A stretch of 50,218 bases of DNA from Bordetella parapertussis (GTDB taxonomy: Bacteria > Pseudomonadota > Gammaproteobacteria > Burkholderiales > SG8-41). Made by a program: the position numbers and the translations under genes. A model generated the notes under the pieces. It searched no databases, was not told where the DNA came from, and saw only the letters and a program-made list of their open reading frames with translations. Position 1 is the first letter of the stretch. Every line of letters begins with the position of its first letter. The DNA lies in assembly GCA_945906935.1 (NCBI GenBank), contig CAMDSO010000015.1, positions 1 through 50,218 on the forward strand. The letters are read 5' to 3'. Of this stretch, positions 20,707-34,922 are shown one piece after another.

Positions 20707-21087
20707 ATGAAGATGCTGATCCGTTTATTGGCGTTGGCGCTGAGCATGACTGCAGCAACACTAGCCTTTGCGGGCGGCGACGACTACGACGCCGCCAACG
20801 ATGTCAAAGGCCAGGGTCCCGCCTATTTCGGCTTTGTACGTGACACGCGCGGCTCGGCGGTGGCCGATGCGCAGGTCGTCCTGCAGCCGAAAAAAGGCAA
20901 GGCGCTCACCTTAAAGACCAATGTATTGGGCCTCTACCGCGGGCACATCAGCAAAGCCGTTCTGGCGGATGAGGTGCAGGTCTCCTGCCTCAAGACCGGT
21001 TACAAGCAGACTAAAATCAACCGCCGCACGCCACCAGGCAACACTGCAATGTTTATCGAGACCGAATGCACCATGCAGCGCCAGTAA
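20707..21087 (+). CDS. Secreted carboxypeptidase-regulatory-like protein
   Basis: 126 residues from ATG 20707 (MKMLIRLLALALSMTAATLAFAGG, a signal peptide cleaved near residue 22). The mature protein is one beta-sandwich of the carboxypeptidase regulatory-like/transthyretin type: YFGFVRDTRGSAVADAQVVLQPKKGKALTLKTNVLGLYRGHI. Two Cys (SCLKTG and ETECTM) could form a disulfide. This fold repeats the N-terminal domain of the 715-residue heme protein in the same operon, so it may be a binding subunit of the complex. Its 3' end overlaps the start of the amidohydrolase gene by 22 bp. Confidence 0.7.
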   Translation: MKMLIRLLALALSMTAATLAFAGGDDYDAANDVKGQGPAYFGFVRDTRGSAVADAQVVLQPKKGKALTLKTNVLGLYRGHISKAVLADEVQVSCLKTGYKQTKINRRTPPGNTAMFIETECTMQRQ

Positions 21088-22784
21088 GGTCCGCCGCTCG
21101 CTACCGCTTTGCCCGCATCGTTGCGCATTTCCTCCTTGCACTGACCGGCATCACAAGCGCACAGGCGCAATCCGCCTCACCGCCAGACGCCATACTCATC
21201 AATGGCAAAGTCGTCGTCTACGGCGCACCGCATGCACAGGCGTTGGCGTTACGCGACGGCAAAATCAGCGCCATCGGCAACACCCCCACCATACGCGCGC
21301 TGGCTAGCGCCTCAACACGCATCATTGAGCTCGGCGGCCGCACCGTCATCCCCGGCCTGATTGATTCGCACATCCACGCCATCCGTGCCGGCATCAGCTA
21401 TACCAGCGAGGTCCACTGGTCGGACGTCAGAACCTTAAAGCAGGCGCTCGAGCGTTTGCAAGCCGCCGCGAAAACCACGCCCAAGGGCGCATGGCTGGTG
21501 GTGGCGGGCGGTTGGAGCGAACGGCAATTCCGCGAAGACCGCCGCCCGACGCAGGCCGAGATCAGCGCCGCCGCACCGGATCATCACGTCTACATTCAGA
21601 AGTTCTACAGCAGCGTGTTACTCGACCCGGCAGGCGCGGCCGCGCTTGGCATTGCGGATAACCCCGCATGGTCAAAACGCCTGACGATGGAACGCGATGC
21701 CAACAGCCGGCCGAGCGGATGGCTGGCCGGTGACAACCGTGCCATCAGCGATCTCTTCAACCTGCTGCCAAGACCGACCTACGCGCAGAAGCTCGCCGGC
21801 ACGCGCGCATTTTTTCGCACACTCAATAGCATGGGCGTGACCGGCGTCCTTGACCCTGGCGGCTACAACATCGAAGAGGACGATTACCAACCGCTGTTCC
21901 AGCTCTGGCGCGAAAACGCACTCACACTACGCTTGCGCTACAGCCTCAGCGCACCGCGTGACGACCATGAACTCGAAGACTTCAAACGCCTGACACAACA
22001 ACGGCCGATGGGCGGCGGCGATGCCTGGCTGCGCTTCAACGGTATCGGTGAGAACGTGACCTGGGGCCATTACAACAACGATCAACCGGACGCTGCGCAA
22101 AAAGCGCGGCTCGAAACCGTGCTGCGCTGGGCGGCCGGCCAAAACATGACAGCGACCTTTCATTGGCACAACGACCGCCACGTGCACCACCTGCTCGATG
22201 TGGTGGCGCGGGTGAATGCCGATACGCCGGTTGCACCATTACGCTGGTCGGTCGCGCATCTCAACGATGCCTCGCCCGAGACCTTGCAACGCCTGCGTAT
22301 CCTGGGCATGGGCTGGCTGGTGCAGAACGCGTTTTATTTTCGTGGCGAGGCCTTCCTCGGCCAGCGCGGCGCTGAAGCCGCGCGCAGCGTGCCACCGCTC
22401 GCCAGCGCGCTGCGCCTGCAACTGCCGGTCGGTGGCGGCACCGATGCACATCGCGTGATGACGCCCAACCCCTTTGTCGCGCTGCAATGGATGCTCGATG
22501 GCAAAACCGTCTCCGGCATCGCCATGCGCAGCGCGGCGGAAACACCAACACGCCTTGAAGCCCTGCGCCTCTACACACAGGGCAGCGCCTGGTTCAGCTT
22601 CGAAGAAACCAGCCGCGGCGCCCTCGCCGTCGGACAACTCGCCGATCTGGCCGTATTGAACCGCGATTACCTCGGCGCGCCGCTTAACCAGATCGGTGGC
22701 ATCACCTCCGTGCTTACCATGGTGGGCGGACGCATCGTCTATGCCGTCGGCCCTTACGCCGCGCTTGAAGAAAAGCCGCGCTGA
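21066..22784 (+). CDS. Exported amidohydrolase of the YtcJ (Amidohydro_3) type
   Basis: 572 residues. The start at ATG 21066 overlaps the preceding gene by 22 bp. A signal-peptide-like N-terminus (about 10-36, LLALTGITSAQAQS) precedes the composite barrel. Family marks: DAILINGKVVVYG, VIPGLIDSHIHA (metal His-x-His), FHWHNDRHVH, VAHLNDAS, VGGGTDAHRV (metal Asp) and GALAVGQLADLAVLNRDYL at the C-terminal beta sandwich. Zinc-dependent hydrolase of unknown amide or ester. It ends the heme/propeller operon, which suggests that the operon handles one exogenous compound: hydrolysed here and oxidised by the heme protein (inference). Confidence 0.88.
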   Translation: MHHAAPVRSAARYRFARIVAHFLLALTGITSAQAQSASPPDAILINGKVVVYGAPHAQALALRDGKISAIGNTPTIRALASASTRIIELGGRTVIPGLIDSHIHAIRAGISYTSEVHWSDVRTLKQALERLQAAAKTTPKGAWLVVAGGWSERQFREDRRPTQAEISAAAPDHHVYIQKFYSSVLLDPAGAAALGIADNPAWSKRLTMERDANSRPSGWLAGDNRAISDLFNLLPRPTYAQKLAGTRAFFRTLNSMGVTGVLDPGGYNIEEDDYQPLFQLWRENALTLRLRYSLSAPRDDHELEDFKRLTQQRPMGGGDAWLRFNGIGENVTWGHYNNDQPDAAQKARLETVLRWAAGQNMTATFHWHNDRHVHHLLDVVARVNADTPVAPLRWSVAHLNDASPETLQRLRILGMGWLVQNAFYFRGEAFLGQRGAEAARSVPPLASALRLQLPVGGGTDAHRVMTPNPFVALQWMLDGKTVSGIAMRSAAETPTRLEALRLYTQGSAWFSFEETSRGALAVGQLADLAVLNRDYLGAPLNQIGGITSVLTMVGGRIVYAVGPYAALEEKPR

Positions 22785-22814
22785 CGTCCGCGACGACGAC
22801 GATGACCGTCAGCC

Positions 22815-24212
22815 TTACGCCGGCATCGTCAAGCCGATCAAAGCATCGGCCCGCGCTTGCCCATCCAGCGCGCGACAGGTTTGTATGATCGTCTCAAAGC
22901 GCTCCGCGCTCAGCGGCAGCCCCGGCACCAGGTCACGCACCCGCCGCGCCTGCTCCTCGTAGTTCCAAATGAATTCCTGCCCAGTGCCTTGCCGCGTATA
23001 AGACTTTCCGTCAAGGGTAAAAATGCTGATACGCGGCGCGAAGAGCCCGGTGGTGTGGGACGGAATGATCGTCACCCGTTTCATCAACTCCAACACCTCG
23101 GGAGGATCGTCGGCACTGACGCTTTGCGGCACCCAGTCCCTCAACATCGGAAAGCCGCGCTGGATCGCCGCGAAGGCGAGGTGATACGCCGTGCTGCCGG
23201 GCTTATGGATTTTGTCTTCACGCCGATTGGGAAACGCCGGGCTTGGATACTGCGTCTCCAGCCAGTTCACCACCGCCTCGATGCGTTCGATCTGATCAGG
23301 TTTTATCGAATGCTCGGTGCACAGCTGCGCGGTAACCGCGATGTGCCCGATGTTGTAACCCGAGGTGGAATAAATACGGTAGAGCGTTTCGAGAAATATC
23401 CACGACGCGCCGAGACCCGCAGTGATGTTGTCCAGATTGGCGCGCGTGTCACCGGTGAAACTATAGGTCAACCGCCCCTGATTGTTGCCAATATAGGCGT
23501 GATAGAAACCGGCTTCGCCTTCGAGCACCGTTTCACCACCGACATGCCCCTGCCGCGCCAGCGCCACGGCGAACAAGGCATTGCGCGTGGCGACACCTTC
23601 ACGCAGCGCGCGGCCGCCGCTGCGCGGGCCTTCCAGATTGCCACCGGCCATGCTCGCGCAGAGCGCAATCGCGCTGTTCATCTGATCTTCATTCAGACCG
23701 AACATTTTCCCCGCCGCCACTGCCGCGCCAAAAATCCCGAACACCGGGCTGGCGTGAAAGCCGCGCGACATCAGCGTCGGGATGAAATCGGCGGCCAGTC
23801 GTTCCATCACCTCGTAGCCTGCGGCCAGCGCCGTGATGTAATCCTTGCCAGACGCACCACACTCCTCGGCTGCTGCAAACGCCGCCGGAATCACACTGGT
23901 GCCCGGATGCATCAGCATGCGGAAGGTATCCCACTTGCCGCCGGCAAAAGCCATTTCAGAATTAGCAAAGGCTGCACCACCTTTCGTCACCGTGCCGCCC
24001 AAGACCATGATGGTCGCACCGCGACTCACACCAGCCTCCTCCTGCCGGATCAACTCCACCGCCTCACGCCCGGGTGATGTCTGCGAACCGATCAAGATCG
24101 ACGCCAGACATTGCAGCGTGACGCCTTTGGCACGGTCCACCACCGCGGGCGGCAGGTCTTCATACTGCAGCCCCACCACCCAGCGTGCCAACTGCCGACT
24201 CAGAGATGCCAT
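22815..24212 (-). CDS. MmgE/PrpD family protein
   Basis: 465 residues, the usual length. Members include 2-methylcitrate dehydratase (PrpD), itaconate-related and other dehydratase/decarboxylase-like enzymes. Signatures: LARWVVGLQYEDLPPAVVDRAK, a mostly alpha first domain, VLGGTVTKGGAAFANSEMAFA (about 70-90), HPGTSVIPAAFAAAE, HASPVFGIFGAAVAAGKM, and the C-terminal lid with PSPAFPNRREDKIHKPGSTAYHLAF. Shine-Dalgarno AAGGAG lies 9 nt before the ATG. No prpB or prpC neighbours, so 2-methylcitrate is not implied; a Bug gene starts divergently 195 bp away, as is common for betaproteobacterial MmgE/PrpD genes. Confidence 0.88.
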   Translation of the reverse strand: MASLSRQLARWVVGLQYEDLPPAVVDRAKGVTLQCLASILIGSQTSPGREAVELIRQEEAGVSRGATIMVLGGTVTKGGAAFANSEMAFAGGKWDTFRMLMHPGTSVIPAAFAAAEECGASGKDYITALAAGYEVMERLAADFIPTLMSRGFHASPVFGIFGAAVAAGKMFGLNEDQMNSAIALCASMAGGNLEGPRSGGRALREGVATRNALFAVALARQGHVGGETVLEGEAGFYHAYIGNNQGRLTYSFTGDTRANLDNITAGLGASWIFLETLYRIYSTSGYNIGHIAVTAQLCTEHSIKPDQIERIEAVVNWLETQYPSPAFPNRREDKIHKPGSTAYHLAFAAIQRGFPMLRDWVPQSVSADDPPEVLELMKRVTIIPSHTTGLFAPRISIFTLDGKSYTRQGTGQEFIWNYEEQARRVRDLVPGLPLSAERFETIIQTCRALDGQARADALIGLTMPA

Positions 24213-24407
24213 GACTCAAACTCCTTGTATATTGAAGCGGTGATTTTGCCTGAATCGAGGACGGGCAAGACAACACACATCCGTCCGGCGAATAGTCAAA
24301 TTGCGCGGCACGAGCATGCCCCCAAAGAAGCCAGCACCCTGCCCGCTCGATTGACAACACGCCGCAACCAGACAACACTCAGTGCACTTTTTAATCGGGA
24401 CCCCACC

Positions 24408-25382
24408 ATGCAACTCAAAACGCTGCTCACCGCCACAACCTGCGCCATCGCCGCACTGACCGCCACCATCACCTGCGCACAAACCTACCCCAACAAACCG
24501 CTCCGCATGATCGTGCCATTCCCGCCGGGTGGTGGTGTTGATTTCATGGCGCGCATCATCGCGCAAAAACTCAGCGAGCGCGTCGGCCAGCAAGTTATCG
24601 TCGACAACCGCGCCGGTGCCAACGGTATCACCGGGCTGCAGGCCATGATGGCCGCACCCAACGATGGCTACACCATCGCCAGCGCCTCGGCCGGTCCGCT
24701 CGCGGTCAATCCGTCGGTCTACAAAAATCTGCCCTATGATCCGCTGCGCGACTTCAGCATCATCGCGCGCGTCTGCGACTTTCCGCTGTTGCTGCTGGTG
24801 CATCCAGCGCTGCCGGTCAAGAATGTGCACGATCTGATCGCCTTGGCGAAAGCCAGACCCGCGCAATTGTCGTACGGCTCGTCGGGCGCCGGTAATTCAG
24901 ACCACCTCGCGGCAGAACTTCTTAAATCACTGGCCAAGGTCGATATCGTGCACATCCCGTACAAGGGAACCGGGCCGATGTCGCTGGCACTGCTCTCTGG
25001 CGAAATACCGGTGGCCTTCAGCAGCATTCCGCCCACGCTCTCGCAAGTGCGCGCCGGCAAACTACGCGCACTCGCCGTCGGCAGCGGCATGCGTATTCCG
25101 ATGCTGCCTGAAGTACCGACAGTAGCCGAAGCGGGCGTGCCCGGTTATGAAGCCTATTCATGGGGCGGTGTCGTTGGCCCGGCCAACATGCCACGCGAAA
25201 TCATTCAGCGCCTGAACCGCGAGATCGTCGATATTCTCAAGCAAAAGGATGTCATGGATCGCTACCTCGGTGGCGGCACCGTGGCCACGCCTTCGACGCC
25301 GGAGGAATTCACCACCCTCATCCGCGACGAAATCAAGAAGTGGGGCGATGTCGTGAGGGCGGCGAAGATTACGGCGGATTAA
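24408..25382 (+). CDS. Bug/TctC-type periplasmic binding protein
   Basis: 324 residues from ATG 24408. Signal peptide about 1-25 (ending ITCAQ). Family marks: YPNKPLRMIVPFPPGGGVDFMAR, VIVDNRAGANGITG, LPYDPLRDFSII, IVHIPYKGTGPMSLALLSGEIP, LPEVPTVAEAGVPGYEAYSW, and an EFTTLIRDEIKKWGDVVRAAKI C-terminus. It is transcribed divergently from the MmgE/PrpD gene, so the bound ligand may be a hydroxy- or dicarboxylate processed by that enzyme (inference). No TctA or TctB is near. Confidence 0.93.
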   Translation: MQLKTLLTATTCAIAALTATITCAQTYPNKPLRMIVPFPPGGGVDFMARIIAQKLSERVGQQVIVDNRAGANGITGLQAMMAAPNDGYTIASASAGPLAVNPSVYKNLPYDPLRDFSIIARVCDFPLLLLVHPALPVKNVHDLIALAKARPAQLSYGSSGAGNSDHLAAELLKSLAKVDIVHIPYKGTGPMSLALLSGEIPVAFSSIPPTLSQVRAGKLRALAVGSGMRIPMLPEVPTVAEAGVPGYEAYSWGGVVGPANMPREIIQRLNREIVDILKQKDVMDRYLGGGTVATPSTPEEFTTLIRDEIKKWGDVVRAAKITAD

Positions 25383-25520
25383 TGGGCGCCTGTTACCCCT
25401 CCTTATCAATCCTATCGATCTGCCAGTAGCGGTCATGCACACCCGTCTCTTACGTTTGCACAATACGCAACGAACCACAGCGGTTGTCGGCGCTGATTAC
25501 GTGTCTGACCGGACCCGGGA

Positions 25521-26762
25521 ATGAGCGACACCGGCGACGAGACCGAGGAATCGCGGCAATTTCCATATTGGCGGCACAACCTCAAGGTGCTGCCGCTTGC
25601 GACTCTTTTGTGCAGCCTCGGTTTCGCCCTCTCCTGGCCCTTCCTGCCGCTGATGCTGCGGGACTTGGGGGTGAGCGAAAACCTTGAGACCTGGGTGGGT
25701 TACATCATGCTCGGCTTCAACGTCATCGGCTTCGCCATCAGTCCGATCTGGGGCGACATTGCCGATCACTACGGCCGCAAGATCATGGTGCTGCGCGCGA
25801 TGCTGGGGATGGGCTGCGTGATGATGCTGGTGCCGTTTGCGCAAAGCCCGCTATGGTTCGCCGTGCTGGTGGTAACGGTCGGCTTCTTCTACGGCTACAT
25901 GAACGCCAGCATGGCCCTGCTCGTAGCCAATACGCCGCCGCGGCGTATCGGCAGTGCGCTGGCCTATGCACAGACCGGCGGACTAGTGGGGCAGACCATC
26001 GGCCCCGCCATCGGTGCTTTGCTGGCTGCGGTGATCGACCGCCAGCATTGGTTGTTCTGGATGAGCGGCGGCATGATGCTCTCCGGTGGTGTATTGGTGG
26101 CGCTGTTCGTGCGCGAGAAAAAACAAACCGTGAGCGGGCCCTGGCGCCCCGACTGGATAGGCAGCCTGCGTGAAATCCTTGCCGTGCCACACATGGCGCC
26201 CCTGTATTTTCTGAGCTTTCTGTTTGCCGCATTGTGGTATGGCAATGTGGCCATCGTCAGCATCTACATGTTGCAACTACTCGATGCGCAACCTGCTGGC
26301 GCGGGTAGCGAGACATTCTGGGTCGGTGCCGCGGCAATCGGTCTCGCCATCACCAGCATCATCGCGGTGCCGCTATGGGGCCGTGTACTGGATCGCTACG
26401 GGCCCTCGCGCGTGTTGCTGTTTGCCACCGCAGCGGCGGCACTCACCCACGCGCCACTGCCTTTTCTGCAAACGCCATTGCAACTTGTAATGGTGCGACT
26501 TGCCTTCGGCCTCACCTCAGCGGCAATGCTGCCAGCGATCATACAACTGCTCAGAACCCACACCCCGGTTGGCATGGATGCGAGAGCGATCTCTTATGCT
26601 TCTTCGTTTCAGTGCATTGGGATGGGACTGATGCCGTTTGGGGCCGGATTAATCGGTCCGGTCTTCGGACTGCGCGTTTATTTTGCCCTCTGCACTGCGC
26701 TCACGCTGGGCGGATTAATGCTGTGGCTGCGTGCGGCCAAGCAAATCAGCACTCTACGCTAA
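25521..26762 (+). CDS. MFS transporter (drug or metabolite efflux type)
   Basis: 413 residues with twelve hydrophobic segments. The MFS signature loop between helices 2 and 3 is present (GDIADHYGRKIMVLRA, about 76-91), and its counterpart between helices 8 and 9 reads GRVLDRYGPSRVL. A soluble N-terminus (about 1-25) precedes helix 1. The overall layout resembles TetA/MdtG-type proton antiporters; substrate unknown. GGGA lies next to the ATG. It follows the Bug gene by 138 bp on the same strand, but no shared function is obvious. Confidence 0.9.
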   Translation: MSDTGDETEESRQFPYWRHNLKVLPLATLLCSLGFALSWPFLPLMLRDLGVSENLETWVGYIMLGFNVIGFAISPIWGDIADHYGRKIMVLRAMLGMGCVMMLVPFAQSPLWFAVLVVTVGFFYGYMNASMALLVANTPPRRIGSALAYAQTGGLVGQTIGPAIGALLAAVIDRQHWLFWMSGGMMLSGGVLVALFVREKKQTVSGPWRPDWIGSLREILAVPHMAPLYFLSFLFAALWYGNVAIVSIYMLQLLDAQPAGAGSETFWVGAAAIGLAITSIIAVPLWGRVLDRYGPSRVLLFATAAAALTHAPLPFLQTPLQLVMVRLAFGLTSAAMLPAIIQLLRTHTPVGMDARAISYASSFQCIGMGLMPFGAGLIGPVFGLRVYFALCTALTLGGLMLWLRAAKQISTLR

Positions 26763-27002
26763 CAGCGTATCGAGGCGGCGTGCAGCGCGGCGAGCGGCCT
26801 GCGCAAACACTTGCCACGGCCAGCCCATCAGTAATAGCCAAAGCAAAATCGGCTGGTTTATCCGCGCTGTAGTACCGCTGCCATAGACATCTCCGTTACC
26901 ATACAGGCCTCGCGACAGGCACAAACAGCACGTGTGCCGGGTGCGGTCACGGCGACAATGCCGCCAACCGCGATGACCTCATTCGTTCCACACAGGGCCT
27001 GT

Positions 27003-28031
27003 ATGCCGCACAAGATCAGCAAAACCCACATCAACCCGGTTGCAGAGCCGGCTGTCGACGCCATGCCGGCGGCGAGCAGCCCCCGCAACGCGGCCATCAA
27101 GAGCGGCCTGCATCCGCGCAACAAACACCGTCAGCGCTATCGTTTCGACGAGTTGATCGCCACCAGCCCGGCGCTGAAAAAGTTCGTGCGTTTGAATGCC
27201 TACCAGGACGCCTCCATCGATTTCGCCGACCCGCGTGCTGTCAAAGCCCTTAACCAGGCCTTGCTACAACATTTTTATGCGATCTTGGGCTGGGATATTC
27301 CACCTGGGTATCTGTGCCCGCCGATCCCGGGTCGCGCCGATCACATTCATTACCTGTCTGATTTACCGGGCATCCGTCATATCGCGGGCAAGCCGACCCG
27401 TAAACCGGTCCGGGTACTCGACATTGGCGTCGGTGCCAATGCGATTTATCCGCTGATTGGCTTTCGAGAATATGGCTGGCACTTTGTCGGCACCGACATT
27501 GATGAAACCGCGCTCGCCAACGCGCAGCAGATCCTCAAAGCCAACAGGGGGCTTACCTCATGCATAGAACTGCGTTTGCAAAACTCGGCTACCGCCGTTT
27601 TCAACGGAGCCGTGCGGGCCCATGAAAGCTTTGATCTGACGATGTGCAATCCGCCCTTCCATCAATCCTTTCGCGAAGCGCAGGCGGCGACGCAGCGCAA
27701 ATTGAAGGGCTTGAGCAAGAATGCCGGCAAAGCGCTCCCCTATGATGAATGGCAAACCGCAACCCATAATTTCGGCGGACACGCCCATGAACTCTATTGT
27801 GATGGCGGCGAAGTCGCGTTTATTGAACGCATGGTTGGGGAAAGCCGGCGCTTTGCCACCCAATGTTTATGGTTTACGACGCTGGTCTCGCAGGCCGCCC
27901 ATTTACCCGACGTTTACCGCGCTCTGCAGAAAGTCGAGGCATTACGGGTCGAAACCATCGATATGTCGCAAGGACAAAAGAAAGGCCGCATCGTCGCCTG
28001 GACCTTCCGCCAGCTCAGCATCGATCGTTAA
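27003..28031 (+). CDS. rlmF: 23S rRNA m6A1618 methyltransferase RlmF
   Basis: Methylates N6 of A1618 in 23S rRNA using SAM. From ATG 27003 (AGGG upstream) the protein has 342 residues; starts at 27063 or further upstream (GTG 26934) are possible. Family marks: GLHPRNKHRQRYRFDELI, LLQHFYAILGWDIPPGYLCPPIPGRADHIHYLSDL, SAM motif VLDIGVGANAIYPLIG, the DNA/RNA-adenine methylase motif NPPF (216-219, CNPPFHQSF) and HELYCDGGEVAFIERMVGES. All motifs are intact. Single gene; the 9-bp repeat array begins 18 bp after its stop. The gap upstream (26763-27002) shows no other gene. Confidence 0.9.
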   Translation: MPHKISKTHINPVAEPAVDAMPAASSPRNAAIKSGLHPRNKHRQRYRFDELIATSPALKKFVRLNAYQDASIDFADPRAVKALNQALLQHFYAILGWDIPPGYLCPPIPGRADHIHYLSDLPGIRHIAGKPTRKPVRVLDIGVGANAIYPLIGFREYGWHFVGTDIDETALANAQQILKANRGLTSCIELRLQNSATAVFNGAVRAHESFDLTMCNPPFHQSFREAQAATQRKLKGLSKNAGKALPYDEWQTATHNFGGHAHELYCDGGEVAFIERMVGESRRFATQCLWFTTLVSQAAHLPDVYRALQKVEALRVETIDMSQGQKKGRIVAWTFRQLSIDR

Positions 28032-28048
28032 ATACACAGTTCTAAAAG

Positions 28049-28129
28049 CTCAACGGGCTCAACGTTCTAACTGTTCTAACCGTGCCGAGCGCGCCAAACA
28101 CGCCGAGCACGCTGATTACGCTGAGCAGC
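28049..28129 (+). repeat. Degenerate 9-bp tandem repeat behind rlmF
   Basis: Nine consecutive units in exact 9-bp phase: CTCAACGGG, CTCAACGTT, CTAACTGTT, CTAACCGTG, CCGAGCGCG, CCAAACACG, CCGAGCACG, CTGATTACG, CTGAGCAGC. Units drift from one end to the other, as in an old minisatellite. It starts 18 bp after the rlmF stop and lies between that gene and the convergent UGSC gene. Confidence 0.75.
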
Positions 28130-28246
28130 GTGCCCTAGCGAAGCGGCCATGCGCACGTCAAGCGCAATGATTACGCCAGCGCTCTACTGCCACCGCTGGT
28201 TGTGTTTTCTGGCGGGCACTGACACACAACAGCACCCGCCGCTGGC

Positions 28247-29959
28247 TCAGCTTGAGCCCGCCGCGCGTGCGGCATCCGCTTCGGCCACCAGTTGATCAAA
28301 TGCCGGCGGCAGCTTGATTTCGCGGCCGATAATGCCCGGGCAATAGCCCTGCAGCCACAGCGCATGGCTCGAATGCCCGCCACCGGCAACCACCAATCCG
28401 ATGTTGGACGGCTTCGCTGCAATCGGCCACGGATCAAGCTGCATGCTCTCGCGGGCCACCTCGGTGGAGGCAATCTCCATCCACGCCAGGCCGCCGGCAG
28501 CGCGCATGTCGGCGAGCGGAATTTTCGAATGCTCGAAGAGAAATTCGCGTATCGAATTCTTGGTCCAGCCGAGCGAAGCCAGATCGGCGGCAACCACTTT
28601 CGACAGCACCACGATACCCGGCGTGCCCTCGGCATAACCGTAGATGTAATGAATGTTGGGCACGCGCAGATACTGCGCCACGCGATGCAAGCCCTGCAGT
28701 GCATCCTCTTCCTTGGTTTCCTTCTTCGCACCACGGCGGAAAATATTCTCCGCGCCGTTGGCAAAGGCCAGCGAAATGCAATTCACACCGCGCGCGAAGC
28801 CATGGCGTTCCTCGGTAAAAGTCGGCCAGCCGTCGGGCATGCCCTCCTCGTCCTCGGCAAACACGGCGTTGGTGTAACGCATCTGACCGAACACCGCCAT
28901 CGTACCGGTCGCCGGCAACGCACCACCAAGATTCTGTTGCATCAAGCGCAATGCGCGACCGATGCTGGCACCAGCCGGATGCTCAGGGTCGGGCCCGAGC
29001 AAACCAAAGCCTGAATTGAGACGGATCTTCTTCGCCATCGGTCCACTGACAATCACCACCGGAAACGGACTACCGGAGGTCGCCTGCAACAATTCACTCA
29101 TCGCCGACGGTTCAAAAAATGCTTCCACGGCGGCGATCAATACCGGCAAATACTCGGGACGCCCACCAGCCATCGCCAGCGCGATCGCGCAGGATTCGAC
29201 CTTCACAATCGCGCCCCGCGGCGGAAACTTGCCCAGCACATGCGCACGCGGCAGTGGCGCGCCGCGCATGATCCAGTTGACGCGTTCGGTGGTCGCCGGC
29301 CACAGTGGCAGACCATCGCCCCATTGCCGCGCGATTAGCAGATCGTTGGCCTTGTTCAAGGCCTCTTCGTACGTCGGCGCCTCGACGCTCAACATGCGCC
29401 CTGCAACCGCGCGTACTTTGTTCGACACCCACTTAGTGAGCCCGGCATAAAACTCGCTCTTGCGCGCCTCAATGGCCGACAGATCGGCACTCGGCAAAAA
29501 ATTCTCCGTGGGAAAGGTCACCATCGCGATGTCGGGGGCAAGACCAATCCCGGACACTGCATTCTTCACCACGCCGATAAATTCCTGGCGCGTCAGCACC
29601 ACGGTCGGGATCCCCATCAACTCCAATTGCGCGGCAGCACGGCCGCACGCTGTTGAGCACGCCCCTCAGGCGGCGTTGCCGACAATGACGGCATCCACCC
29701 CGCTGTCTCTGACCATTTGCACCACTTCAGCAGTGCCAATCCTGGTATTGCCTTGCGGATAATGATCTTCGGACAAGACTTCGATGCCAGGGAAATCCGT
29801 CTCCAGCAGCGTCTTCAACAAGGGCAGCATCCGAAAGGCCTGCCATTGGCCGTTGGACAGCATGCCGATACGTTTGCCGGCGAGCGACGGCAGCCGTGTC
29901 GCATATGGTTTCGAGGCGTCCAGCGTTCCGGACGGATCGTAAAATTCGAGTTTGACCAT
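28247..29959 (-). CDS. UGSC-type selenoprotein (in-frame UGA = Sec98)
   Basis: 570 residues if the UGA at 29668-29666 is read as selenocysteine. Start: ATG 29959, GGAG 7 nt upstream. The N-terminal part (1-97) ends DAVIVGNAA, then U-G-A-C at 98-101, then STACGRAAAQLELMGIPTVVLT. The UGSC family of (seleno)proteins carries this UxxC redox-like motif at the same point, with Cys in some members. Coding continues in the same frame past the UGA without any other stop for 472 codons. A 7-bp hairpin (29648-29642 / 29635-29629) begins 17 nt after the UGA; its 6-nt loop has G 26 and 28 nt from the UGA, as in bacterial SECIS elements. The C-terminal part (about 180-570) is soluble and unrecognised. A nonsense mutation from TGC is the alternative. 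A Bug gene starts divergently 161 bp away. Confidence 0.8.
29629..29648 (-). promoter_or_regulatory. Candidate bacterial SECIS hairpin
   Basis: On the minus-strand mRNA: GTGCGGC (29648-29642), loop CGTGCT (29641-29636), GCCGCGC (29635-29629), giving seven pairs including one U-G. It begins 17 nt after the in-frame UGA and has G in the loop, within the 16-37 nt window known for SelB-bound SECIS elements. The structure is drawn by hand. Confidence 0.6.
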
Positions 29960-30045
29960 CAATATCTCCGATTGATTACCGCGTATTTTTTTGCCAGTAC
30001 ATTGTAACGTCGCTGTCGATGGAAACGAAGTTGCCGCGCTGAAGT

Positions 30046-30067
30046 ACGCAGAGGCGACGCAGAGGCG
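30046..30067 (-). repeat. 11-bp tandem repeat C
   Basis: Two exact copies of ACGCAGAGGCG (30046-30056 and 30057-30067). On the minus strand the phase GCCTCTGCGTC resembles array A's GCCTCAGCGAC at 9 of 11 bases. It lies in the divergent promoter region between the UGSC gene (start 29959) and the Bug gene (start 30121). Confidence 0.75.
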
Positions 30068-30120
30068 GCCGCTATAATCTTCGTCACCGGTTCGGCAACG
30101 CCCATTTCTTAGGGATACCC

Positions 30121-31089
30121 ATGCATCCAGTCTTTCGCCCCGCCCTCACGACCTTGATGCTGTTGTCAATAGCATCTGCACTGCACGCGCAACCGTATCC
30201 GCACAAACCGATCCGCATCCTCGTTGGCTTCGCTGCCGGTGGGCCCACCGATGTGGCGGCGCGTCTCTTAAGCCAGCGACTGACCGAACGCTGGGGACAA
30301 GCCGTCGTTGTCGAGCCGCGCACCGGTGCGGGCGGCAACATCGCCGCAGAGGCCGTCGCCAAAGCAGCGCCCGATGGCTATACGCTGCTGCTGCCGGCGT
30401 TTGCGCACGCGGTCAATCCCTCTCTATATGCAAACCTGCCGTTTGACACCGACCGGGATTTTGCCCCGGTGGCATTGCTCACCACCTCCGCCAATCTTTT
30501 GGCGGTGCATCCGTCGGTGCCGGCGCATACGCTGCGCGAACTCATCACGCTGGCCAAATCAAAACCTGGCGAGCTGAGCTACGGTTCGGCCGGCGTTGCC
30601 TCGGCCTCACATCTTGCCGGTGAATTGCTCAACAGCATGGCAGGTATCAAGCTCACGCATATTCCCTACAAAGGTGCAGCGCCGGCGAGCGTTGATCTGG
30701 TCGGCGGCCATATCTCGGCCGCATTCCCCAGCGTCTCGCTGGCCTCACCCCACGCCAAAGCCGGCAGGCTGCGTGTCTTGGGCATCGCCAGTCTGAAGCG
30801 CGCAGAGAACCTGCCGGAGGTGCCAACCATCGCCGAAGCCGGCGTGCCCGGGTTTGAAGTGCTGTCGTGGTATGGACTGCTGGCCCCGGCTGGCACACCC
30901 ACTGAAATCATTACGCGCCTGAATCAGGAAGTCACGCGCAGCCTCAACGAACCCGAGGCGGTCGAACGCCTGCGTGCGATCGGCGCCGAACCAATGAAAT
31001 CAACGCCAGCTGAATTCAACGCCTTTCTCAAAAACGAATTTGCGAAGTGGGCGAAAGTCATTCGCACTGCAGGCATGCGGGCGAACTGA
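30121..31089 (+). CDS. Bug/TctC-type periplasmic binding protein
   Basis: 322 residues; AGGGA 6 nt upstream of the ATG. Signal peptide about 1-23 (LSIASALHAQ). Family marks: YPHKPIRILVGFAAGGPTDVAAR, VVVEPRTGAGGNIAAE, LPFDTDRDFAPVALL, LTHIPYKGAAPASVDLVGG, LPEVPTIAEAGVPGFEVLSWYG, EFNAFLKNEFAKWAKVI. It is transcribed divergently from the selenoprotein gene, so it may import that protein's substrate (inference). A terminator follows at 31183. Confidence 0.93.
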   Translation: MHPVFRPALTTLMLLSIASALHAQPYPHKPIRILVGFAAGGPTDVAARLLSQRLTERWGQAVVVEPRTGAGGNIAAEAVAKAAPDGYTLLLPAFAHAVNPSLYANLPFDTDRDFAPVALLTTSANLLAVHPSVPAHTLRELITLAKSKPGELSYGSAGVASASHLAGELLNSMAGIKLTHIPYKGAAPASVDLVGGHISAAFPSVSLASPHAKAGRLRVLGIASLKRAENLPEVPTIAEAGVPGFEVLSWYGLLAPAGTPTEIITRLNQEVTRSLNEPEAVERLRAIGAEPMKSTPAEFNAFLKNEFAKWAKVIRTAGMRAN

Positions 31090-31182
31090 ACGAGCCACAC
31101 CCGTTATGCACTGCAGATAAAATTACTTAAAACAAGAATTCTTTACTTAAAGAGTCTGCTAGCGTCACTGCGTAAACTCATC

Positions 31183-31217
31183 AGCATCGCGGCCTCTTAA
31201 GAACTGCGATGCTTTTT
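31183..31217 (+). terminator. Rho-independent terminator after the Bug gene
   Basis: Perfect 8-bp stem AGCATCGC (31183-31190) / GCGATGCT (31206-31213), 15-nt loop containing the palindrome TCTTAAGA, then a run of five T. It lies 94 bp beyond the Bug stop at 31089. Confidence 0.8.
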
Positions 31218-31346
31218 CCCTCGACAACCGTCGTGACTCTCACCCTCCGCCGCAAGCGTAATGTCAGCATTCGACCGGTGCAGTTGATTTTGCCTGCCGG
31301 CATCGTCGATACGGCCCTCGCGCTACTGGATCTCAGGGTATGATCA

Positions 31347-31553
31347 ATGTCTAATCATCCAGATACAGGGCGCGCCATGAACGTCTCATCAGTGAGCCAT
31401 TCCGCCAGCACTCCGCCGGCAAGCATCAAACCCGCACAACCCAAAGAACCGCCGGCCGAAGTCGCGGCTGAAAAACACGCTGCACAAAAACCCGCACCAG
31501 TGTCGGAAACACCACGCGAGATTAAGGGATCGCACGTCGACATCACGGCATGA
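31347..31553 (+). CDS. Small Ala/Pro-rich hypothetical protein
   Basis: 68 residues, hydrophilic and low-complexity (Ala, Pro, Ser, Lys, Glu), ending in GSHVDITA. No signal peptide or membrane helix. AGGG lies 8 nt before the ATG at 31347; an in-frame ATG at 31377 also has a nearby AGGG, so the start is uncertain. Betaproteobacteria carry other small proteins ending in a similar Gly-x-x-(Ile/Val)-(Asp/Asn)-x-x-Ala tail, without known function. The next gene, an M48 lipoprotein, follows by 65 bp. Confidence 0.45.
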   Translation: MSNHPDTGRAMNVSSVSHSASTPPASIKPAQPKEPPAEVAAEKHAAQKPAPVSETPREIKGSHVDITA

Positions 31554-31602
31554 AGACAGTTTTGTTTCCCCAATCATGCCCTGTGTAATGCCATCCAATC
31601 CG

Positions 31603-31618
31603 CCTGTTCGAAAACAGG
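31603..31618 (+). promoter_or_regulatory. Hairpin abutting the M48 start codon
   Basis: CCTGTT (31603-31608), loop CGAA, AACAGG (31613-31618), directly followed by the ATG at 31619. The only Shine-Dalgarno-like bases (AGG) lie inside the stem and touch the start codon. Initiation may be inefficient or conditional. Confidence 0.5.
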
Positions 31619-32401
31619 ATGCCACCGCCATCCTTTCTGCGTGACGCAGCCCGCGTCCTGCGTCACGCTCTGGCGATACTGATCGTCAGCGGCTGCGCAA
31701 GCACACCGCAAAAATCCGCACCAGCGGCAGACGCCTGGATACTCAATGGCAACTGGAACCAGACCAGTGCTTTTGCCGACATCACGCTAAAAGGTAAAAG
31801 CGGACTATCCTATCCGCTGCAGGGCGTTCACCTGACCAATCTGCGCAAGGTCGTCACCGCGCTACAAGTGCAAAGCCGGCTGGACCCACAGGTATCGCTA
31901 GTGGCAGGCGACGTGCCCAACGCGTTTGCCAGCACCAATAACGGCCGCCAGATCATCGCACTCACTTTACCGATGCTCGAAAAAATCGGCGCCGATCAGG
32001 ACGCACTGGCGACCACACTCGGCCACGAGCTCGCCCACCTTGCGTTGAAACACGGTGAACTGCGCCGCCAACGCGCTGAGTCCGCCAAAGGTGTGAGCGA
32101 TGTGCTGGGCTTGGTACTGGGCGTGGCCGGCGTACCGATGGGCGGTACCCTCGCCAATCTTGGTGTCGGCGCGGTCACTTCCGCCTACTCACGCGATGAA
32201 GAACGCGAAGCCGATGTACTGGGCTTGCGCTGGGCGATGGCGGCCGGTTATAGCGCCTGCGGCTCGGCCAGAACCATGCAAATGCTCAAAACGATTTCGA
32301 GTTCTTCGTCGCTGCCATTTCTGGCGTCTCACCCCGGACATGACGAACGCATCGAACGCGCCCATCAAACTGCGCTCAAAGCAGGCGGGCAGGCTTGTTA
32401 A
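31619..32401 (+). CDS. M48-family metallopeptidase lipoprotein
   Basis: 260 residues. An N-terminal signal with lipobox (LIVSGC, lipid Cys at about 26) predicts a lipoprotein. The zinc site is HELAH at 136-140 (His136, His140, catalytic Glu137) with EREAD near 195-199 supplying the third ligand. A hydrophobic/Gly stretch (about 160-182) and a C-terminal HPGHDERIERAH segment follow, as in BepA/LoiP-like envelope peptidases. Likely role: quality control of outer-membrane proteins. No chaperone or TPR partner is fused, so it is shorter than BepA. The ATG is the only possible start in the frame and sits against a hairpin. Confidence 0.9.
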   Translation: MPPPSFLRDAARVLRHALAILIVSGCASTPQKSAPAADAWILNGNWNQTSAFADITLKGKSGLSYPLQGVHLTNLRKVVTALQVQSRLDPQVSLVAGDVPNAFASTNNGRQIIALTLPMLEKIGADQDALATTLGHELAHLALKHGELRRQRAESAKGVSDVLGLVLGVAGVPMGGTLANLGVGAVTSAYSRDEEREADVLGLRWAMAAGYSACGSARTMQMLKTISSSSSLPFLASHPGHDERIERAHQTALKAGGQAC

Positions 32402-32442
32402 TACTGGGCGACGACTACAAAACCAAATAACCCGCCAGCCCC

Positions 32443-33330
32443 TCAGACCTGGCGGCGCGACGCATACTCTCGGTGCAAAAACGCAATGATTTTTTTGAGA
32501 CCGTCGACCGCCGCCGGCGTGTCGGGCTTGTAGAGAATAAAGCCCTCGCCTTCGCCGGCGTAGAGATGTAGATCAACCGTGCCGCCGGCCTCACGGTAGG
32601 CCGCGACAAAGCTATCGAGATTCGCGCGTGGATGCGCCACATCCACCTCGCCCTGCACATACAGCACTGGCGGCAAAGCGGTCTTCTCGCCACCTTCGAG
32701 GATGCGCACCGGGCTGCCTTCGGCCATCGCCGCCTCGGTCTGCCAATAACGATCATGATCGGGCAACACGCGGTCGACGACCGGCGGATAGGGCTGGCCT
32801 TGCGCCTTGAGCTTCTTCGCATATTCGTAACGGCCGAGCGGATCAATCACCGGCCAGTAGAGCACCGCGCAACAGACATCGGCACTGACAACGCCCGCCG
32901 CGTCCGGCAGCGGCAAGGCCGCATAACGCGCGTCAGCGGGGCGCAATGCCACCAGCATGGCCTGATGGCCGCCGCTGGAACTGCCCATGATGGCGACACG
33001 ATCCGGCGACACGTGGAAGCGTGCCGCCTGTGATTTAAACCAGCGGATGGCGAAATTGATATCCACAATTGAAGCCGGATAAGCGGCCTCGGGCGGCATG
33101 CGGAAGTCGAGGGCGGCCACCACGATGCCGCTGCGCGCCACCGCTTCGTGAATCAGCGCATCCTGCAGGCGGTCGGCACGACACCAGGCACCGCCATGAA
33201 TTTCAATCGCCAGCGGGAACGGGCCGCTGCCGCGCGGTGTGTAGACGCGGGCCAGGAAGGGCTTGCCGGCATGACGGATGTATTCAACATCCTCGATATC
33301 AATCTCGTATTGCTGCGTAGTGGTATTCAT
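32443..33330 (-). CDS. Alpha/beta hydrolase (HSL-like) with altered active-site His
   Basis: 295 residues; AAGGA 7 nt before the ATG. The fold is clear: oxyanion motif HGGAW (45-49), nucleophile elbow GSSSGG with Ser118, and VLYVQGEVDVAHPRANLDSF for the acid strand. At the place where esterases of this type have the catalytic His in GEGHGF, the sequence reads GEGEGF (259-264), so Glu262 replaces it; the codon is GAG. Either His is supplied elsewhere or the protein is not a classical hydrolase. It is co-directional with the GlcG-like gene 48 bp upstream and divergent from a Bug gene, so the three may share one substrate. Confidence 0.8.
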   Translation of the reverse strand: MNTTTQQYEIDIEDVEYIRHAGKPFLARVYTPRGSGPFPLAIEIHGGAWCRADRLQDALIHEAVARSGIVVAALDFRMPPEAAYPASIVDINFAIRWFKSQAARFHVSPDRVAIMGSSSGGHQAMLVALRPADARYAALPLPDAAGVVSADVCCAVLYWPVIDPLGRYEYAKKLKAQGQPYPPVVDRVLPDHDRYWQTEAAMAEGSPVRILEGGEKTALPPVLYVQGEVDVAHPRANLDSFVAAYREAGGTVDLHLYAGEGEGFILYKPDTPAAVDGLKKIIAFLHREYASRRQV

Positions 33331-33378
33331 CGAATTATCCTTGATCGGCCATGATTGCGCCTGCGATGCAGCCGCGCC

Positions 33379-33846
33379 TTAATTCTTCAAACGCACATGG
33401 TGTTTCGACTGTGTGGCGTCGGCGTCCGTTTTCAGTCCCGCCTGATGAATACCCCAGGCGGCGAGCTCTTCATCACACTCCTGCGTGTCACCGGTGACGC
33501 CGACCGCCCCCAGCACGTCGCCATGCGCGTCGCGGATCAACATGCCGCCGCCCTCGGCGAAGATGCGATCCTGCGAAGCCTTGAACAGAAAATCCATGAA
33601 CAGGGGACGCTCCTCGCTACGCATGCGCACCAGACTCGACGAGCGTCCGAGTGCCAGCGCGGCGTACGCCTTACCCATCGCCATTTCGAAACGCATCATT
33701 GCCGAGTCATCCTCTTTCTTGAACGCCTTAACGATGGCGCCGGGTTCAACCACCACCACCGACATCGGCCGGCAGTCGAGTTCGCGCGCCCGCGCGAGTA
33801 TGCAATCGATGATTTTTTCGGCCTGCGCGAGACTGATCATGCTCAT
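33379..33846 (-). CDS. GlcG/HbpS family protein
   Basis: 155 residues from ATG 33846 (GGGGG 7 nt upstream); a TTG at 33861 is possible. Family pattern: ISLAQAEKIIDCILARARELDCRPMSVVVVEPGAIVKAFKKEDDS, then RFEMAMGKAYAALALG, then FAEGGGMLIRDAHGDVLGAVGVTGDTQECDEELAAWGI. GlcG/HbpS-like proteins bind heme or small ligands and often sit beside catabolic genes; the exact role is unsettled. A C-terminal tail (about 135-155) rich in charged residues is extra. Precedes the alpha/beta hydrolase by 48 bp on the same strand. Confidence 0.85.
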   Translation of the reverse strand: MSMISLAQAEKIIDCILARARELDCRPMSVVVVEPGAIVKAFKKEDDSAMMRFEMAMGKAYAALALGRSSSLVRMRSEERPLFMDFLFKASQDRIFAEGGGMLIRDAHGDVLGAVGVTGDTQECDEELAAWGIHQAGLKTDADATQSKHHVRLKN

Positions 33847-33938
33847 GTCTTGACCCCCCAAATACGGCTGATTATATGACGCCGCCCGCTGCGATCACGC
33901 CTATACTCCGATTTTTGGCGACGCGTGAGGCCCCCAAA

Positions 33939-34922
33939 ATGCCGCTGCATAAATGCTTCGACCGCTGGGTGACAGCCCTTGTATTGATCCTGTGTCCGCT
34001 GCTTGCTGTGCACGCAGCCGAGCCCTATCCGGCGAAACCGGTGCGTTTGTTAGTCGGCTTTGCTGCCGGCGGCGCCAACGATTTGGTCGGCCGCATCGTC
34101 GCCGCCAAACTCAGCGCGCGCATGAACCAGCCAGTGGTCATCGACAACCGCGCCGGCGCCGGCGGCAATATCGCGCATGAGATCGCTGCCAAAGCCACCC
34201 CCGACGGTTACACCATGGTGCTGGCGTCGGTGACCTCGCTGGCGATGAGCCCGGCACTTCTCGGCAAGGTGCCTTACGATCCGGTCGCTGATTTTTCATT
34301 CGTGGCACAACTCGTCGAGGCCAGCAGCCTGTTGTCGGTACACCCGTCGATAGCGGTCAAAACACTCGCAGAATTTGTCAGCCGCGCAAAACAACAACCC
34401 GGCAGCCTGAATGTCGCCAACCCGGGCACCGGCAGCATTGCGCATCTCTCGTTTGAGCTATTTAAAACGACCGCCGGGATCCGTGTCGTCAACGTGCCCT
34501 ACAAAGGCGGCGGGCCGGCAGTGATCGATGTGCTCTCCGGCCAGGTTGGCAGCCTGGTCAGCGTAATTTCTACCGGCGTCCCGCATATCAAAGCCGGCCG
34601 GTTGAGAGGCCTCGCCATCAGCAGTCTCGCGCGCTCACCCATCCTGCCGGAGGTGCCGACGATTGCCGAGAGCGGCTATCCGGGCTTCGAAGCCAACGGC
34701 TGGCTGGGTCTCGCCTTCCCGGCGAAGACGCCCACCGCGATCGTGAACCGGCTGCAACAAGAGGCGCTGGCCGTGATGGCGCTGCCTGACCTGCTCGAGC
34801 AGCTGCAAAACGCCGGCCTTGAACCCTCAGTCAAGGACGGTGTGGCGTTTAAACGCTATGTGCAGGCCGAACTCGTGAAGTGGACGAAGTTAATCAAGGA
34901 ATCGAACGTCAAGGCGGATTAA
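33939..34922 (+). CDS. Bug/TctC-type periplasmic binding protein
   Basis: 327 residues. I chose ATG 33939 (GAGG 8 nt upstream) over 33876 because it puts the signal peptide (about 1-26, LILCPLLAVHAAE) at the N-terminus. Family marks: YPAKPVRLLVGFAAGGANDLVGR, VVIDNRAGAGGNIAHE, VPYDPVADFSFVAQL, VNVPYKGGGPAVIDVLSGQVG, LPEVPTIAESGYPGFEANGWLG. Divergent from the GlcG/hydrolase pair across a 92-bp shared promoter region. Confidence 0.93.
   Translation: MPLHKCFDRWVTALVLILCPLLAVHAAEPYPAKPVRLLVGFAAGGANDLVGRIVAAKLSARMNQPVVIDNRAGAGGNIAHEIAAKATPDGYTMVLASVTSLAMSPALLGKVPYDPVADFSFVAQLVEASSLLSVHPSIAVKTLAEFVSRAKQQPGSLNVANPGTGSIAHLSFELFKTTAGIRVVNVPYKGGGPAVIDVLSGQVGSLVSVISTGVPHIKAGRLRGLAISSLARSPILPEVPTIAESGYPGFEANGWLGLAFPAKTPTAIVNRLQQEALAVMALPDLLEQLQNAGLEPSVKDGVAFKRYVQAELVKWTKLIKESNVKAD

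Follow-up and report, generated by a model that had tools for sequence, protein, structure and literature searches.

The window analysed here, a stretch of 50,218 nucleotides (nt) from contig CAMDSO010000015.1, belongs to a draft assembly of 259 contigs (GCA_945906935.1) that is titled Bordetella parapertussis and placed by GTDB in SG8-41 of the Burkholderiales, and it carries on its minus strand (28247 to 29959) a complete, UGA-interrupted gene of 570 codons that we assign to the UGSC selenoprotein family. The gene opens with an ATG standing 6 nt after a Shine-Dalgarno sequence (GGAG, 29966 to 29969), runs for 97 codons, meets a single in-frame UGA at codon 98 (29666 to 29668), and continues for a further 472 codons to a normal stop codon (28247 to 28249). 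The UGA lies in the context VDAVIVGNAA-U-G-A-C, where U stands for selenocysteine (Sec), and is followed by Cys101 (29657 to 29659), the second member of a U-x-x-C pair and nearly invariant in our alignments, and by another cysteine at residue 105. All of these features had been described in a first-pass annotation made from the letters alone, and all were reproduced here, as was the internal TTG from which it expected a gene caller to start the remainder (28247 to 29626, 459 amino acids [aa]). A plasmid of Acidovorax sp. T1 carries a relative that shows the predicted truncation: the incomplete gene table of PLSDB enters it only as a 97-codon piece ending at the in-frame TGA. We confirm the observation of one gene interrupted by UGA, and our findings support its reading as a UGSC-family selenoprotein gene.

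The UGA is almost certainly read as Sec in the cell. Among the listed sequences with at least 59 % identity, all 36 (the window included, and some ended by a contig edge) had exactly one TGA, in a survey that was capped at 23 scored candidates per genome and therefore gives lower bounds; close relatives keep TGA and not the TGC that the first-pass annotation had named as a sign against its reading. In a comparison with four relatives, all of which have TGA at the same codon, the ratio of nonsynonymous to synonymous substitution rates (dN/dS) after the UGA was 0.06, 0.13, 0.12, and 0.16, indicating purifying selection past this codon. Before the UGA, the ratio was 0.07 to 0.20 in three relatives, and that of the closest relative rests on four changes. 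Homologues with a cysteine at the Sec position and one uninterrupted frame are present at three loci (L155, L161, and L184). The genomes analysed are mostly drafts, in which strain mixtures are possible.

The genome also encodes the complete Sec machinery, the absence of which would have spoken against a selenoprotein. We found selA (604.9 bits) and selB (427.8 bits), both above cut-off, a tRNA-Sec with a UCA anticodon (75.5 bits), and selD, likewise above cut-off. Since selD contains one in-frame TGA (L100, 1501 to 2427; G000:C29:9419-10345), its own product is probably a selenoprotein. On contig C149, the gene order is selA, selB, a thioredoxin-reductase-like gene, and tRNA-Sec. Across 60 genomes, UGSC and selB occurred together in 36, UGSC only in 3, selB only in 4, and neither in 17 (Fisher p 1.3e-8, uncorrected for kinship); the three genomes with UGSC only are 80, 91, and 88 % complete.

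A hairpin resembling the bacterial Sec insertion sequence (bSECIS) follows the UGA (29629 to 29648, minus strand). It consists of a 7-bp stem (29648-29642 paired with 29635-29629) closed by the loop CGUGCU (29641-29636), which begins 24 nt after the UGA, with a minimum free energy (MFE) of -11.8 kcal/mol and a pairing probability of about 0.67 in a 51-nt context. The bacterial SECIS model calls for a loop of 3 to 9 nt, a stem of 4 to 16 bp, a G in the first two loop bases, a distance of 16 to 37 nt from the UGA, and an MFE of -7.5 kcal/mol or lower (PMC13188914). The 7-bp hairpin with a loop G that the first-pass annotation placed at SECIS distance is real and fits this model, with a 6-nt loop, 7 bp of which 5 are conserved, and G as the second loop base. 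Across 32 subfamily sequences, the inner five pairs were paired in 160/160 cells, one of them G-U; the outer two are variable, and in many members their bases do not pair.

Folding energy alone did not single out this hairpin. Across the whole family, 35.7 % of 115 genes folded more strongly than synonymous recodings at p <= 0.05, compared to 4 % of 225 control windows, and the test failed for the window gene and the two paralogues close to it. Because of this failure, we used codon constraint as evidence for the hairpin in the window's subfamily. Under the hairpin, an arginine is encoded by CGT in 31 of 32 members versus 12 % further down the same genes; the next alanine by GCA or GCT in 31 of 32 versus 11 %; a later arginine by AGG or AGA in 22 of 25 versus 3 %; and a threonine by ACA in 21 of 31 versus 4 %. 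Since these sequences are kin, the counts are not independent events. In the SECIS stretches of the 115 genes, three subfamilies use three hairpin sequences: the second has a different 8-bp stem (198/200 cells paired, 25 sequences) and the third a different 6-bp stem (152/156 cells, 26 sequences), while 32 of the 115 stretches fell outside these three classes and were left out of the class counts. In the window's subfamily, the loop lies five and seven bases further from the UGA than in the other two.

The window gene belongs to an established family of selenoproteins. A search with its 570-residue translation, the check proposed with the earlier reading, matched PF24696 at 76.5 bits against a gathering cut-off of 25, with the UGSC domain covering residues 7 to 151 (29507 to 29941, minus strand). 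The NCBIfam equivalog NF041046 was matched at 54.4 bits against a cut-off of 125, from which we conclude that the gene represents a divergent subfamily; a short paralogue (L055) exceeds that cut-off at 143.3 bits. With the family, the window protein shares U-G-x-C at the Sec position (U98-G-A-C101; Cys forms in L155, L161, L184, and L185) and the bSECIS-like hairpin after it, and it differs in its U-G-A-C, its sub-equivalog score, and its more distant hairpin loop. The first-pass annotation was correct that the motif is UGAC in place of UGSC, but this is no oddity, since alanine occupies that site in 17 of 32 subfamily members. The UGSC family and its fusion to an unknown domain were published in 2008, when UGSC proteins were among the commonest selenoproteins of an ocean-sampling set; the available part of that paper gives no function for them (PMC2398784).

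Beyond the UGSC domain lies a second module, here called the C-part (residues 184 to 570; 28250 to 29410, minus strand), for which the first-pass annotation recognised no family. This holds for Pfam and NCBIfam, where the C-part had no match up to E 10, but the module is not peculiar to this gene: each of the 22 UGSC domains in the genome has a C-part on the same strand, fused in one open frame in 13 cases and encoded by a separate neighbour in 9. Of the nine separate pairs, UGSC comes first in five and the C-part in four; one same-frame pair (C72:9092) was counted as separate, with an open frame of 179 aa and the order reversed. Since the two modules are fused in some loci and separate in others, we suggest that they work together. 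A C-part query finds 23 places in the genome, and the single lone copy (L097, G000:C23:33339-33935) has no UGSC domain found beside it. The C-part was modelled at a predicted local distance difference test score (pLDDT) of 90.1, and its invariant residues in 61 aligned sequences, an alignment that left out 20 of the best 80 relatives described below, include Gly216, Ala258, Met263, Gly265, Gly334, Arg335, Asn343, Glu369, and Trp378. A 'UGSC/Unknown_1 fusion' was reported in 2008 (PMC2398784), and like the window protein it joins UGSC to a second conserved domain of unknown function. The C-part is likely the published Unknown_1. The constant pairing (22/22) and the split form are described here and go beyond the published fusion.

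The first-pass annotation considered a single gene, and both the number of copies and the likeness to GrdB and PrdB set out below went unseen. Each of the 22 PF24696 domains in the window's genome has one TGA. A full count in a draft genome of the same genus (G004) gave 58 UGSC matches, 54 of them with TGA and 3 of these 54 with a further stop, and a full count in another genome of about 30 contigs (G021) gave 21 matches, 19 with TGA. Every one of the 36 genomes sampled from the window's family had UGSC, with from at least 2 to at least 48 matches; at most 48 candidates were scored per genome in this family-wide survey, and its counts are lower bounds. In a sample of the phylum, where at most 8 candidates were scored per genome, only 5 of 398 genomes, the window's own included, had any UGSC. 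The largest whole bacterial selenoproteomes comprise 57 and 63 genes, and selenoprotein-rich bacteria are mainly anaerobes (PMC13188914), so that UGSC alone, with 54 UGA-bearing matches in one draft genome, can be set against these whole-genome records. Because gene-calling programs can truncate them at the UGA, UGSC copies may be absent from databases. In the selenoprotein literature searched, as far as its sources were available, we found no link of UGSC to GrdB/PrdB and no report of a Burkholderiales expansion, and a literature search for selenoproteins in metagenome-assembled genomes (MAGs) of Burkholderiales gave no match. The surprising features are the size of the family in betaproteobacteria, the constancy of the second module, and the relation to the reductases of glycine and proline.

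In a tree of 82 UGSC domains, which has open forks and long branches, the paralogues of this genome are spread over many deep branches, several of them common to other phyla. Because they are scattered in this way, most copies look old and not like recent duplicates.

Comparison of sequence profiles makes it very likely that the UGSC domain is remotely homologous to the Sec domains of the reductase for glycine, betaine, and sarcosine (GrdB) and of D-proline reductase (PrdB). A UGSC profile of 24 sequences aligned with GrdB/PrdB in hhalign at a probability of 95.4 % (E 1.9e-8) over 90 columns, placing Sec on Sec, compared to 0.3 % for thioredoxin-reductase-like proteins and 0.4 % for TctC receptors (5 sequences each), and it is this difference on which we base the homology. 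The GrdB/PrdB set comprised 15 loci from the relatives' genomes, of which 11 were aligned and four were left out (L194, which has a second stop, L198, L199, and L200). The two groups also share a VDAVI...U...GIPTV pattern. In an NCBIfam scan, the window protein gave weak matches (E 0.004 to 0.05), all around Sec98, to the models of GrdH, GrdF, PrdB, and GrdB, which represent betaine, sarcosine, and glycine reductase selenoprotein B together with PrdB. The differences are as clear: the window protein falls far below the family cut-offs (12.6 vs 65.45 bits for TIGR01918, 14 vs 300 for TIGR04483, and 11.1 vs 22 for PF07355), its Sec is at residue 98 whereas that of the GrdB at L188 is near residue 346, and its C-part shows no detectable likeness to GrdE.

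During catalysis by glycine reductase, the bound substrate is attacked by the Sec of GrdB, with release of ammonia (PMC10838667, PMC13188914). Paralogues of the GrdB/GrdE type specialise, and for one such pair, cleavage of the C-F bond in fluoroacetate has been proposed (PMC10838667). This fluoroacetate reductase, farEB of Cloacibacillus porcorum MFA1, is an earlier example of GrdB-type Sec proteins whose several paralogues differ in substrate, although it consists of true GrdB/GrdE proteins in an anaerobe and belongs to a family other than UGSC (PMC10838667).

Taken as a whole, the best explanation, which we hold with moderate confidence, is a gene read with Sec that encodes a two-module seleno-reductase whose Sec module is related to that of GrdB/PrdB. 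The hairpin after the UGA would help to read it as Sec. From the very likely homology of the Sec domains of UGSC and GrdB/PrdB, we propose that Sec98 acts like the Sec of GrdB: its selenolate would attack a small organic substrate and bring about reductive bond cleavage, after which Sec98 and Cys101, as the resolving thiol, would end as a selenylsulfide. The thioredoxin-reductase-like flavoprotein encoded between selB and tRNA-Sec could then restore the pair, although we put it forward as electron donor only tentatively. The C-part, as the constant partner, may form the substrate pocket; its role as a substrate-binding partner, drawn by analogy from the pairing of GrdB and GrdE, is an evenly balanced proposal. 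The paralogues would serve different substrates, several of them imported via TctC receptors, and the notion of a set of two-module seleno-reductases cleaving different small organic substrates stands at, or just short of, that same balance. A bolder proposal, to which we give somewhat less credence than we withhold from it, is that UGSC and C-part form a third branch of the GrdB/PrdB superfamily, in which a new partner module replaces the pyruvoyl subunit, and that this branch, which has relatives in Chloroflexota and other phyla, has radiated in uncultured Burkholderiales into dozens of seleno-reductases per genome, each specific for a substrate. If true, one family would give these bacteria some of the largest selenoproteomes known.

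Several results weigh against this picture. The 42 nt after the window's UGA fold no more strongly than random synonymous recodings (z +1.76). The GrdB link depends on the profile-profile comparison, in which the control profiles held 5 sequences each, and is weak when judged by a simple hidden Markov model (HMM) search. In a Pfam search up to E 10, the GRDB model gives the window protein E 0.24, in a region away from the Sec end of the model, and is outranked by Peripla_BP_6 (E 0.038) and Asparaginase_C (E 0.12), which are unrelated; we took all three matches as noise. The C-part gave an hhalign probability of 0.1 % with GrdE, the pyruvoyl partner of GrdB, in a comparison with only 3 GrdE sequences that left out PrdA, and we rejected it as a detectable GrdE homologue and, by comparison, as a relative of GrdB itself. 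Since the C-part shows no homology to GrdE or to any Pfam or NCBIfam family, a Schiff-base mechanism as in glycine reductase is unsupported. Its best structural neighbours are weak as well: Foldseek found no match at E <= 0.001 and ranked fumarate hydratase first (E 0.013), and the best VIA match (Z 5.0 over 168 residues) is at noise level, too weak to support a named fold. A thioredoxin-reductase-like gene lies within 3 ORFs (open reading frames) of UGSC in only 5 of the best 80 loci.

The fold model bears on a different reading, in which the protein is a general thiol-disulfide or peroxide-handling enzyme with a thioredoxin-like redox role and no substrate-cleaving activity. The U-x-x-C motif and the thioredoxin-reductase-like gene beside selB would fit such an enzyme, and UGSC was called 'likely Trx-like', with conserved cysteines in its fused domains, in 2008 (PMC2398784). 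The window protein was modelled with a pLDDT of 92.6 and a predicted template modelling score (pTM) of 0.93, and in the model strands and helices alternate in a domain that spans about residues 24 to 183, with Sec98 predicted just before or at the start of a helix. The best structural matches of this domain are Rossmann-like and response-regulator-like proteins, and no thioredoxin was among the 50 matches listed for the model, an absence that in itself excludes nothing. The modelled UGSC fold seems unlike the thioredoxin fold put forward in 2008. With the profile likeness pointing to GrdB/PrdB, and with 22 copies in the window's genome, 58 in G004, and the C-part pairing in the former suiting many substrates better, we consider a general redox role unlikely. 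Searches with the whole protein added little: fold searches were filled by Rossmann-like proteins, the top Foldseek match (3-dehydroquinate synthase, E 1.5e-4) had a TM (template modelling) score below 0.3 and was not taken as homology, and phmmer against Protein Data Bank (PDB) sequences gave two chance matches (E 0.38 and 0.47).

A slightly less probable alternative is that Sec or Cys serves as nucleophile or base in a non-redox reaction of the racemase, lyase, or dehydratase type, the C-part being lyase-like. The C-part model weakly resembles fumarate hydratase, L-serine dehydratase, and MmgE/PrpD-type folds, MmgE/PrpD-type genes occur within 3 ORFs in 6 of the best 80 loci and about 4 kb downstream of the window gene, and methionine takes the Sec position in one relative (L143), but the structural scores are those given above as noise, and a nearly invariant Cys101 suits redox chemistry. 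As a rule, Sec is retained where the chemistry is redox or nucleophilic, which also speaks against this alternative. That the UGA is a true stop, leaving a pseudogene or two separate genes, or an assembly error, is extremely improbable: a downstream TTG start and a source draft of 259 contigs are compatible with it, but we rejected it on the single TGA in 36 of 36 sequences and the dN/dS of 0.06 to 0.16 past a TGA kept in all four relatives, and the full Sec machinery and the uninterrupted Cys homologues oppose it too.

The surroundings of the proposed seleno-reductase gene (21066 to 34922) form a neighbourhood of small-molecule catabolism. A gene for a TctC (Bug-type) solute receptor (PF03401; 30121 to 31089, plus strand) is divergent from the window gene and may provide a link to its substrate; two further TctC genes (24111 to 25382 and 33876 to 34922), the MmgE/PrpD gene, an amidohydrolase, a major facilitator superfamily (MFS) transporter, and an HbpS-like gene lie in the same region. 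Among the best 80 loci, a TctC-like cluster occurs within 3 ORFs of UGSC in 30 and adjoins UGSC in 21. TctC genes are common in these bacteria, and because of this we take the proximity (30/80) as a hint only. CoA-transferases lie within 3 ORFs in 6 loci, and together with the TctC and MmgE/PrpD genes they suggest small organic acids as substrates. These neighbours come from a simple greedy ORF caller, with clusters named from one scanned member and TctC by alignment with the window's TctC; cluster 1 consists of further UGSC/C-part copies, and cluster 4 looks like spurious antisense ORFs and was set aside. A thioredoxin-reductase-like gene adjoins a selB-cluster gene in L141, L144, and L160, another member of that cluster (L117) having been scanned as SelB. 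In Variovorax boronicumulans EBFNA2, a distant thioredoxin-reductase-like gene, a TctC gene, and a Cys-form UGSC gene (L184, 7986 to 9623) together make up an operon-like run. The function of UGSC can now be tested by means of this run, the GrdB/PrdB link, the constant partner module, and the candidate reductase gene beside selB.

The relatives in named genomes are the best 80 of at least 546 loci and are biased towards window-like sequences. Their records are titled as uncultured Betaproteobacteria, Burkholderiales, Chloroflexi, Rokubacteria, Tectomicrobia, Nitrospinae, Alphaproteobacteria, Actinomycetota, and others, and many of the titles indicate lakes and groundwater. At the Sec position, 70 of the 80 have TGA within the gene, and in 4 a UGSC motif with TGA lies in a different frame no more than 2.5 kb away; cysteine occurs in 2 (L155 and L161; Novosphingobium flavum and Nonomuraea corallina), methionine in 1, and the remaining 3 have no UGSC in the DNA examined. 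The methionine (GDMGSC) stands in an otherwise open frame of a Clostridiales MAG (L143, 5275 to 6915). Among plasmid records, Acidovorax sp. T1 and Paracoccus versutus UW1 have TGA forms, and Variovorax boronicumulans and Natrinema zhouii have Cys forms (L184 and L185). The Acidovorax sp. T1 plasmid is a conjugative IncP plasmid (NZ_CP021650.1), on which IS1071- and IS91-family transposase genes lie upstream of the TGA-bearing UGSC/C-part gene (L183, 7929 to 9461), listed there only as a 97-codon hypothetical. Some bins titled Bordetella parapertussis (L119, L137, L146, L160, and L177) and Chitinophaga pinensis (L135 and L154) have UGSC genes that group with betaproteobacterial ones, so their titles look wrong; L154 is nearly identical to the C41 copy of this genome. 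Finally, on a Dehalococcoidia contig of 71446 bases (DCAE01000115.1; G459:C131), about 7 kb separates a true, TGA-bearing grdB from a UGSC/C-part locus (L171 and L189).

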